The position numbers and the translations under genes were made by a program. A stretch of 64,000 nucleotides of DNA from Acidobacteriota bacterium (GTDB lineage Bacteria; Acidobacteriota; Thermoanaerobaculia; Multivoradales; JBCCEF01): the NCBI GenBank assembly GCA_039028635.1, contig JBCCHV010000017.1, positions 1-64,000 of the forward strand, in the 5' to 3' direction. The number at the start of each line of letters is the position of its first letter. Position 1 is the first letter of the stretch. The notes under the pieces were generated by a model. It was given only the letters and a program-made list of their open reading frames with translations. It was not told the DNA's origin and searched no databases. This document shows positions 8,136 through 11,395 of this stretch, one piece after another.

Positions 8136-8765
8136 CTAGTCATCGCCTTCCTCCTCGGAAGACGGCTCCGACAAGGCCCCTTCCGGCAAAGCTGCGCCGG
8201 CGCTCGGCTCCGCCGCGAGGAGATAGTTCAGATCTTCGGCGAAGGTCTCTTCCTTCTGCGCCCCCAGGTAGGAGGAGTAGATCAGGCCCTCGCGATCGAG
8301 AATGAAGGTGCTGGGATAGCCGGTCAGACCGCCAAACACGGCGGTGCTGACCTCGCCAGGATCGAGCAACGTCGGGAAGGTCAGGCCGAGCTCCTCGGCA
8401 TAGGGCTGCACCTTCGAGCGCCCCTCCTTATCGGTCGCGATTCCGACGATGGCGACGCCTTCGGAGGCGAGGTCACGATGCAGTTGCTCGAGCACCGGCA
8501 GCTCCTCGCGGCAGGAGGCGCACCAAGTGGCCCAGAAGTTGATCAGCAGAACCTGTCCCCGGAAGGCCGACAGGCGGTGACGCTCACCGTCGAGCCCGAG
8601 GAGCTCGAAGTCGGGCCCCGGCATGGTGCGGGCGACATCGATCGCCAGCGGACCGGAATCGACCGGCGCCGACGGCCCGCAGGCCGCCAGCACCAGGCAA
8701 AGCACAAGCGGTAAGCCGCGCCGGCCCCAATCGAGCCGCCGTCGAAACGGTCGCTCAGTCGCCAT
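8136..8765 (-). CDS. TlpA-like thioredoxin-fold lipoprotein
   Basis: 209 residues from ATG 8765. A lipobox (LVLAAC, Cys29) follows a short Arg-rich N-terminus, so the protein is likely lipid-anchored outside the inner membrane. Residues about 48-185 are a TlpA/ResA thioredoxin fold with active-site WCASC (Cys82, Cys85) and a cis-Pro motif (GYPSTF). The family reduces or exchanges disulfides in the periplasm. The C-terminus is acidic. The start overlaps the end of the DUF3179 gene by 11 nt, so they are coupled; the thioredoxin could recycle the redox-active Sec/Cys of that protein, which is an inference. A start 87 nt upstream would bury the lipobox and is less likely. Confidence 0.88.
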   Translation of the reverse strand: MATERPFRRRLDWGRRGLPLVLCLVLAACGPSAPVDSGPLAIDVARTMPGPDFELLGLDGERHRLSAFRGQVLLINFWATWCASCREELPVLEQLHRDLASEGVAIVGIATDKEGRSKVQPYAEELGLTFPTLLDPGEVSTAVFGGLTGYPSTFILDREGLIYSSYLGAQKEETFAEDLNYLLAAEPSAGAALPEGALSEPSSEEEGDD

Positions 8766-9477
8766 CGGCTCCGGCATTCTCGCGTTCTTCCTTCTCGCGG
8801 TGCAGCTCGTCGATGGTGCCGGTGGCTTCACCGCGGCCTTCGCAGTGGGCACAGGTCAGCACCAGCGTTTCAGGGTGATCCTCGAGCCAGTCGCTCCAGC
8901 GGTGGATCGCCCAGGCATCATCCGGCAGCTCGGCGAGCTGCTCGCCGGTGAAAGCCCCTTCTCTCGACTCACCGGAGGCCTGATGCCACAGGGAATCGGT
9001 GTCGGTGTCGTACATCATGAGGTTGCCGTCGATCAGCTTGCCGGAAACCCCCAAGGTCAGCTCTTTGTCTCCTACACGGCGGTCGTGGACCACGACCGAT
9101 TGCTCGGATGGTCACCAAGAAGCCGCGATGGGCTGTCCTCCGACACGATCATTGACGATCTGATGGTTCTTCAGGATGTAGAGCGGATAGGCCCGGGACT
9201 CGCCCTGGGCACTCACTCCGACGACGCTGACGCCGCCGGCGAGGGGGGCTTCGTCAGCGGCGACCAAAATCGGTCGGACGAGCGCCAGCTTGGCGTCCTT
9301 GGCGCGGTATTCGAGCAAGCCATGGAAGGGCTTGCCGCCGGTGACGGTCTTGGCGGCGGAGCCGTGGGGCTCGCTGGCCTGGACCGCGGGCTCGGGCTCG
9401 CCCGACGAGCAGGCCAGCGCCGAGAGGGCGACCAGGGTCACTCCGAGGATGGATCCACGCGAGGTTGCATATCTCAA
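8755..9477 (-). CDS. DUF3179 lipoprotein, putative selenoprotein (in-frame TGA = Sec122)
   Basis: Read as one gene, this gives 240 residues with TGA as codon 122 (9114-9112). It starts at TTG 9477, with GGAG 8 nt upstream, and has a lipobox (SALAC, Cys23). The part before TGA (ESRAYPLYILKNHQIVNDRV) and the part after (VVHDRRVGDKELTLGVSG, then LMMYDTDTDSLWHQ) are the two halves of one DUF3179 domain in the same frame. TGA falls where the family usually has the first Cys of a CPLC motif (here SW-U-PSEQ). A bSECIS-like hairpin follows the TGA. Sec is therefore the simplest reading. A nonsense mutation or sequencing error (TGC/TGT to TGA) is the alternative. It lies 3 nt after the CRTAC1 gene and overlaps the TlpA gene. 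Sec members of DUF3179 may already be recognised in databases; I cannot check here. Confidence 0.8.
9080..9114 (-). promoter_or_regulatory. UGA codon plus bSECIS-like hairpin
   Basis: On the minus strand, 13 nt after the UGA (9114-9112), an 8-bp perfect stem CGGUCGUG/CACGACCG (9098-9091 and 9087-9080) closes a GUC loop. If the top G-C pair is open the loop reads GGUCC. The loop begins about 20 nt after the UGA, inside the 16-37 nt window known for bacterial SECIS elements, and starts with the required G. It resembles the GGUCU apical loop of E. coli fdhF. Confidence 0.75.
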
Positions 9478-9480
9478 CGG

Positions 9481-11352
9481 TCAATCTCCGGTTTGGTTGA
9501 AGAAGCTCTCACCCCAGGGCTGCGGGGCGACGGGTTCGGCCGGCACTTCACGCCAGCTCTCAGAGGCCTGATCGAAAATCAAACTGCGGTCCAGGGGCAC
9601 CGATTCGAAGCGGGCGACGGAGCCGTCCGGCCAGATGATCTCGACATCCGCCGCGGCGACCTCGCCGAGGCCGAAGTGGAGGGTCGTCGAATGGGTGCCG
9701 AGATAGCTCTCGCCGACCATCCGCCAAGCCGTGTGAACCTGCTCCTGGCCGTCCGCCGTTGTCGCCCGCACCACCACTTTGGCCCCTACCGCCCAGCGGT
9801 TCGAGCCGGTGCCGACGAGCTGCACCGCCAGCCAGTTGCCGAGTCGCTCCGAACGGTTGTGCAACAGCAGCGGCTCACCGTTGTGGACCAGCACAGCGAG
9901 GTCCACCAGACCATCGCGGTCGATATCGGCGAAGGACATGCCGCGGCCGACGAAGAGCTCTTCGAAGATCTCGCCGGCGCTCTCCGACACCTCCCGGAAT
10001 CCCTCCGCCTCGCGGGCGTAGACCATCTGTCGCTGGGGGATCATCTTGGGCTCGGTCAGGACCTCGAGAGTCCATTCGTCCTCCACCGTCGAGCCGTTGA
10101 CCAGGAAGAGGTCGGCATCGCCGTCGAGATCGAAATCGCGGAAGCCGGTCCCCCAACCCACCAGGTCGCGGGTGATCGGTCCCAACCCCTCTTCGAAGGT
10201 CAGGTCCTCGAAGAGCAGCTCGCTGCCGTCGCTGGCATTGCGATAGAGGGCGTTCTCCTCGCCCACCCAGTGGGTCAAGAAGAGGTCCGGCCGGCCATCG
10301 CCGTCGTAGTCCGACAGGCCGATGCCCATGCCGGCGCGAGGATCGCGCGTGCCGGCGTTCTCGGTGACGTCCACGAAGGTGCCGCCCTGATTGCGAAACA
10401 GACGGTCGAAGCTCTGATCGTTAGCCACGTAGAGGTCCGGCCAGCCGTCGTCGTCGAGATCGGCGAAGGCGGCCTGCAGACCACGTCCCTGGGGATCGTC
10501 GACGCCGGCCTCGGCGGCGACCTGCTCGAAGCGACCGTCGCCTTCGTTGCGCAACAGCAGGTTGGGTTGCGGCGGATAGTTGGCCGGCGTCGTCATGGTG
10601 CCCGGACGACCGCCCACCAGCGGCCGGTTGCGGGCCCGCTCCCAGGGAAAGTCGACATAACAGGGAATGTAGATATCGAGGTCGCCGTCGCGATCGTAGT
10701 CGGCGGCGGCGGCGCCCATCGCCTCACACGGGATGACCCCGAGGCCGGCGGCGCGACTGCGGTCTTCGAAGGTGCCGTCGCCGCGGTTGCGCAACAGCAC
10801 GATCTTGTCGATGCCGGTGATCAGTAGATCGAGCCAACCATCGCCATCGAAGTCGAGCCAAAGCACACCGTTGTCCCAGCCGACGTGGCCGGTGCCGCTG
10901 GCCTCGGTGACGTCACGGAAGGTGCCGTCGCCCAGGTTGCGGAACAGGCGCCCGCCCTGGCGCTCCGCCTCGAGGGCAGAGCGCTCGGCGAGAGCCGGGC
11001 CCGCGAAGTTGACCAGGTAGAGGTCGTCGAAGCCATCGTTGTCGTAATCGCCGAAGGCCAAGCCGGAACCGTTGTCCTCGGGCAGCAGGGCGGCTCGTAC
11101 GGCGTCGAAATGGCGGAACTCGAGGCCCGCATCGGCCGCGATTTCGGCGAATCGGATAGTGCCGGCGGGCGCCGCTTCGGGCTCCGGTTCGGGAGCTGGC
11201 GCCGGAGCACAGGCGGTCAGGGCGCACAGCGCCGCCGACGCCCAACCGAGGCGCAGCCAGGTCACCGCCGACGGCTTCGCGAGCACACGTCCAGCGGCGG
11301 CGGCGGGGTCCGCCGAGGCGCACCTCGGACGGGAGATAGCAGTATGGGTCAT
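9481..11352 (-). CDS. CRTAC1-type lipoprotein: FG-GAP/VCBS propeller with ASPIC/UnbV domain
   Basis: 623 residues from ATG 11352 (a TTG four codons upstream is possible). A lipobox near residue 48 (ALTAC) follows an Arg-containing N-terminus and is followed by a Pro/Glu/Ala linker. At least seven calcium-binding-like FG-GAP motifs follow, such as GDYDNDGFDDLYLVN, DFDGDGWLDLLIT and DIDRDGLVDLAVL, forming a beta-propeller. The C-terminal 110 residues are an ASPIC/UnbV domain (GAKVVVR, ending IIWPDG). These proteins are exported; their biochemical role is poorly known. The next gene begins 3 nt after the stop, so this heads the CRTAC1-DUF3179-TlpA operon. A terminator-like hairpin lies in its leader. 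Confidence 0.88.
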   Translation of the reverse strand: MTHTAISRPRCASADPAAAAGRVLAKPSAVTWLRLGWASAALCALTACAPAPAPEPEPEAAPAGTIRFAEIAADAGLEFRHFDAVRAALLPEDNGSGLAFGDYDNDGFDDLYLVNFAGPALAERSALEAERQGGRLFRNLGDGTFRDVTEASGTGHVGWDNGVLWLDFDGDGWLDLLITGIDKIVLLRNRGDGTFEDRSRAAGLGVIPCEAMGAAAADYDRDGDLDIYIPCYVDFPWERARNRPLVGGRPGTMTTPANYPPQPNLLLRNEGDGRFEQVAAEAGVDDPQGRGLQAAFADLDDDGWPDLYVANDQSFDRLFRNQGGTFVDVTENAGTRDPRAGMGIGLSDYDGDGRPDLFLTHWVGEENALYRNASDGSELLFEDLTFEEGLGPITRDLVGWGTGFRDFDLDGDADLFLVNGSTVEDEWTLEVLTEPKMIPQRQMVYAREAEGFREVSESAGEIFEELFVGRGMSFADIDRDGLVDLAVLVHNGEPLLLHNRSERLGNWLAVQLVGTGSNRWAVGAKVVVRATTADGQEQVHTAWRMVGESYLGTHSTTLHFGLGEVAAADVEIIWPDGSVARFESVPLDRSLIFDQASESWREVPAEPVAPQPWGESFFNQTGD

Positions 11353-11395
11353 ATTGGTCTTCAAAGGGATCCGATCGAGTCGATGAACGGTCTTG

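Follow-up and report, generated by a model that had tools for sequence, protein, structure and literature searches.

We have identified a DUF3179 gene in an Acidobacteriota bacterium whose internal UGA codon is, on sequence evidence, almost certainly translated as selenocysteine (Sec). The gene lies in the window, a stretch of 64,000 nt (positions 1-64,000) of contig JBCCHV010000017.1 in assembly GCA_039028635.1, a 6.28-Mb draft genome of 117 contigs from Acidobacteriota bacterium (Thermoanaerobaculia; Multivoradales; JBCCEF01). It occupies 8755..9477 on the minus strand, encodes 240 residues from a TTG start and is terminated by its own TGA (8755-8757). A Shine-Dalgarno-like GGAG was read from the sequence 8 nt 5' of the TTG (9486..9489, minus strand). 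The sole internal stop, UGA codon 122 (9112..9114, minus strand), falls on the column of the first Cys of the family's CPLC motif. An earlier note, made from the sequence alone and giving no strand, had described a single frame broken only by a TGA at codon 122; this frame was recovered at 9477-8755, and all of the features described with it were located on the minus strand. The translation matched PF11376 with 140 bits (curated cut-off, 27 bits; E = 1.4e-40) over profile positions 8-150 of 292, a match short of the full-length domain, and showed no thioredoxin-family match.

In an alignment of all DUF3179 loci taken for analysis, the N-terminal repeats that cover the active column have Sec in 82 distinct contexts, Cys in 24 and no other residue (a first pass had given 51 TGA and 24 Cys codons). 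That the UGA replaces the first Cys of CPLC, as had been claimed from the window alone, was therefore borne out exactly by the relatives, and the proposed search for Cys/Sec pairs among homologues returned only those two residues. Of 86 TGA codons in the aligned domain, 82 sit on this column; three of the other four lie in the zone of terminators towards the domain's 3' end, and one is in a fragmentary match. The placement of UGA in DUF3179 is far beyond chance. Together with its orthologues, the window gene makes a set of six genes from six genomes (window, the congener G001, L096/L103, L097/L104, L098/L105 and L059/L099), and every copy carries TGA at the same codon. The named orthologues come from metagenome-assembled Acidobacteriota genomes, one of them labelled Thermoanaerobaculia. 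The coding sequence after the UGA is kept in all six, against a threshold of at least two independent sequences. By Nei-Gojobori estimation, this part of the gene has dN 0.11, dS 0.72 and dN/dS 0.15 between the window and G001. Comparison with each of the four remaining orthologues gave dN/dS of 0.10-0.14, at dS values close to or beyond saturation. Across the five orthologues compared, purifying selection acts on the reading frame past the UGA.

The window genome encodes tRNA-Sec (73.3 bits, over cut-off; anticodon TCA by ARAGORN), SelB (367.5 bits), SelA (535 bits) and SelD (279 bits), each scoring above its cut-off, and selA and selB are neighbours on contig C21; the search for selA, selB, selC and selD suggested in the earlier note thus found SelA, SelB, SelD and tRNA-Sec(UCA) all present. 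The SelD match (~304 residues; G000 C42:28839-29762, L021) lies within a 767-codon open frame, which may be a fusion or simply a long stretch free of stops. In a phylum sample of 297 genomes, DUF3179 was found in 91 and its TGA form in 46 of these. SelA occurs in 43 of the 46, and SelB in two of the three remaining; in TGA-bearing G081, a 75% complete genome, neither SelA nor SelB was over cut-off. The association of SelA with the TGA form is weak (Fisher p = 0.035, kinship ignored) since the majority of genomes in the phylum encode SelA in any case.

A bacterial SECIS (bSECIS) hairpin, CGGUCGUG-GUC-CACGACCG, is predicted at 9080..9098 on the minus strand, with an 8-bp stem, the loop GUC and a UGA-to-loop distance of 21 nt. 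The published constraints are a loop of 3-9 nt, a stem of 4-16 bp, a G in the first two loop positions, a distance of 16-37 nt from the UGA and a minimum free energy (MFE) <= -7.5 kcal/mol (PMC13188914). The window hairpin lies within all of them (loop 3, stem 8, 21 nt), with an MFE of -11.6 kcal/mol and -17 kcal/mol for the 50-nt stretch; it is the 8-bp stem with a G-starting loop that had been reported about 20 nt past the UGA. On its own it is not beyond chance, as equally good folds arose in 16 of 200 dinucleotide shuffles and synonymous-codon shuffling gave p = 0.11. Since the single-gene test was not significant, the significance of the hairpin derives from covariation in the family, which was evaluated in a gapless alignment, starting at the UGA, of 31 relatives chosen by protein motif, with L077 (a weak case) dropped and UTLC-type genes left out. 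In this set 97.2% of cells were paired, six of the seven pairs had changes on both sides, and loop positions G25 and U26 were invariant. The covariation values were reached by none of 500 shuffles, and the signal was destroyed when the register was slid by 1-3 columns. Hairpins of the required geometry had a median of -11.0 kcal/mol in Sec genes versus -3.7 kcal/mol in Cys genes (Mann-Whitney p = 4e-9, relatedness ignored). An Rfam search for SECIS elements gave no relevant match. The UTLC-type DUF3179 genes (L080, L082-L088, L090-L095, L067) have a near-invariant hairpin, CCACACC-GGUCU-GGUGUGG, with its loop 15 nt past the UGA, just below the published range of 16-37 nt.

Machinery, the Sec/Cys column, hairpin covariation and the same-codon TGA of the orthologues all support the earlier inference of a selenoprotein, and two other explanations of the UGA were weighed against them. 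Were it a nonsense mutation or an assembly mistake, the two halves of the gene would be remnants, a reading to which the coverage of only half of the Pfam model and the draft state of the genome, in 117 contigs, lend some colour. However, the same TGA is present in six orthologous genes of different genomes, conservation extends to the half-length form and its C-terminal motif, and dN/dS stays at ~0.10-0.15 past the UGA. This conservation led us to reject both pseudogene and sequencing error as vanishingly improbable; decay with stops elsewhere in the homologues, which the earlier note had named as grounds for dropping its reading, was not what the orthologues showed. The UGA could also be read as some other amino acid, through a reassigned code or generic readthrough, and the frame would be open under such a code too. 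Against this, UGA terminates the DUF3179 gene itself and other genes of the window, the DUF3179 TGAs lie on one column that is otherwise Cys, and a full Sec machinery is present together with a covarying bSECIS. Reassignment was rejected on the single-column pattern and is regarded as extremely improbable.

Full-length DUF3179 is a tandem duplication, as its half profiles align with each other over 125 columns (hhalign 99.8%, E = 4e-28), and by this comparison the window protein is one complete repeat and not a truncation. PF11376 consists of two ~135-residue repeats (e.g. L026, L030), which Pfam models as one 292-position domain. Only the first repeat has Sec or Cys at the active column, where the second repeat shows D, A, G or other residues. 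The window subfamily forms a separate branch (SH-aLRT 99) with the motif UPSE, or UASE in L096/L103. Its C-terminus carries a CAHCEGRGEATGTIDEL motif (CxxCxGxG; 8803..8853, minus strand) with Cys 209 and Cys 212. Within the C-terminal CAHCxGxGxxTGT, the CAHC, both G and the TGT do not vary among the aligned orthologues, and the CAHC tail had no match in Pfam. The N-terminus has, as judged on sequence, a signal peptide that includes a SALAC resembling a lipobox (Cys 23; 9409..9477, minus strand). By eye, four of the six orthologues have a lipobox-like Cys (window, G001, L096, L097) and two a plain signal peptide (L098, L099). As all six have signal peptides, the protein is probably exported, with lipidation not universal. 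A divergent DUF3179 branch on a very long branch length (L133, L134, L138) has UENC instead of UPLx/UTLC, and a scan of viral contigs found no further DUF3179 relatives.

A DUF3179 selenoprotein is reportedly to be credited to Zhang & Gladyshev 2007, from an Olavius algarvensis symbiont. DUF3179, with the motif UxxC/T, appears in tables of prokaryotic selenoproteins published in 2022 and 2026 (PMC9312934, PMC13188914), and is thus a known selenoprotein family and not a new one, which weakens the novelty that the earlier note had seen in a selenoprotein that would assign a redox role to an uncharacterised domain. The published proteins (PMC9312934, PMC13188914) share with the window protein the Pfam family and the position of Sec at the first Cys of a CxxC-type motif; they have UxxC/T and two repeats, in contrast to the UxxE, single repeat and C-terminal CAHCxGxG of the window subfamily. 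The published motif accordingly does not describe the window gene and its orthologues, in which E is third after Sec. The literature searched contained no description of a single-repeat UPSE/CAHC subfamily with a TlpA operon, and this form appears to be a new subfamily. The window genome has a second DUF3179 selenoprotein gene with one TGA (G000 C39:26734-27579; L001, L003), and both DUF3179 orthologues in the congener G001 carry one TGA each. The C39 copy shares with the window gene the column of its Sec and the location of a bSECIS-like hairpin, but it has two repeats, a UPLA motif and no Cys after Sec, and inspection of L003 by eye revealed no thioredoxin-like neighbour. Cys-form DUF3179 proteins (CPLC/CTLC; L026, L030, L050) have the same domain and the same column; unlike the window gene, they have Cys for Sec, a second Cys in 24 of 24 and no enrichment of SECIS-like hairpins.

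The DUF3179 gene is the middle member of a presumed operon. The first gene, FG-GAP/ASPIC-UnbV (9481..11364, minus strand), ends 3 nt before the DUF3179 start, and a TlpA/ResA-like gene of the thioredoxin fold with a CASC motif (8136..8765, minus strand) has an 11-nt overlap with the DUF3179 gene end. Antisense to the operon, the plus strand has an open frame of 734 codons (window 8623-10827) that seems to be a side effect of high GC content. A TlpA-like gene adjoins DUF3179 in all five species examined (window, L057 of G001, L096, L097 and L099), and the trio of FG-GAP/ASPIC, DUF3179 and TlpA was found in the window, G001 (L057), L096 and L097. The TlpA gene was confirmed in L099, where the upstream neighbour agrees with FG-GAP/ASPIC by eye. 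In one orthologous locus, the gene after the DUF3179-TlpA pair encodes an E1-E2 (P-type) ATPase (L096:7428-9578). This shared operon makes the TlpA-like protein a likely redox partner of the DUF3179 protein. TlpA/ResA-type thioredoxins and the UGC-containing TlpA selenoproteins are exported thiol redox proteins, comparable in this respect to the operon partner in the window; they are members of the thioredoxin family, to which DUF3179 gave no match.

A column restricted to Sec and Cys and a TlpA neighbour strengthen the inference that the DUF3179 protein has a redox role, and it probably catalyses redox chemistry; Sec insertion and redox role, loosely taken together, are very likely. The second Cys of CxxC is kept in all 24 Cys forms versus 28 of 82 Sec forms, and the Sec forms without it have A (35), T (8), E (5) or a few others. 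The co-occurrence of Sec with a lost second Cys is clustered in the phylogeny, and the tree, with five Sec/Cys changes of which three are forced by starred branches, yields too few independent pairs for significance. As the Cys forms are always CxxC and most Sec forms are not, the in-motif resolving Cys may be dispensable when Sec is present. Most likely, the protein is exported, acts as a Sec-dependent thiol oxidoreductase and is recycled by its putative partner TlpA. SelB and tRNA-Sec would decode UGA codon 122 under the direction of the hairpin, whose loop lies 21 nt past the codon, and Sec would then serve as the catalytic residue of the single DUF3179 repeat in place of the first Cys of CPLC. 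The target of attack by its selenol would be an oxidised substrate in the envelope: a small oxidant, or a partner protein carrying a disulfide or sulfenate. Because UPSE lacks the second Cys, the Se-S or Se-O intermediate would be resolved outside the motif, by the C-terminal CAHC pair and/or the TlpA-like thioredoxin of the same operon, an assignment that we put at slightly below even chances. With Sec, a resolving Cys inside the motif would no longer be needed, and this step would shift to an external thiol, TlpA and, in the window subfamily, perhaps CAHC. Both the second motif Cys and CAHC are absent from other Sec forms (L001, for example), so CAHC is not a family-wide resolving pair. The AlphaFold model of the window protein was poor (mean pLDDT 48.6, five sequences) and PDB sequence searches gave no relative of solved structure; neither fold nor active-site geometry therefore backs the redox step.

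A different role for the same residues would be the binding of a metal or cofactor by Sec and CAHC, which would make the protein an envelope metal or selenium chaperone instead of a thiol oxidoreductase. By eye, CAHCxGxG resembles half of a DnaJ-type zinc motif, TlpA-type proteins can serve in the assembly of metal centres, and L096 has the E1-E2 (P-type) ATPase gene next to the operon. But the motif is without Pfam support, the ATPase is found in one locus only, and a change from CxxC to UxxX is typical of redox active sites; we consider metal binding rather unlikely. It is also conceivable, and more improbable still, that the UGA acts as a selenium sensor, with the 121-residue product that would be made when selenium is lacking functional too and the codon mainly regulating expression of the downstream tlpA via translational coupling. 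Because the first 11 nt of tlpA overlap the final codons of the DUF3179 gene, a stop at codon 122 would uncouple the two. The selected region past the UGA, however, holds the best-conserved domain motifs as well as CAHC, from which it follows that the full-length product matters.

Returning to the reading as a thiol oxidoreductase, we tentatively suggest that the UPSE/CAHC DUF3179 protein and its dedicated TlpA may form an unrecognised envelope redox couple, in which resolution has moved to the C-terminus or to the partner. Standard annotation would give a truncated protein of 121 residues and lose the conserved second half, and the same misannotation would affect many DUF3179 genes, given the TGA form in 46 of the 91 DUF3179-bearing genomes sampled in the phylum. 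The family statistics, with Cys forms always CxxC and most Sec forms not, amount to a testable mechanism, and the window subfamily brings a candidate partner in TlpA, through which the role of an uncharacterised domain is opened to test.
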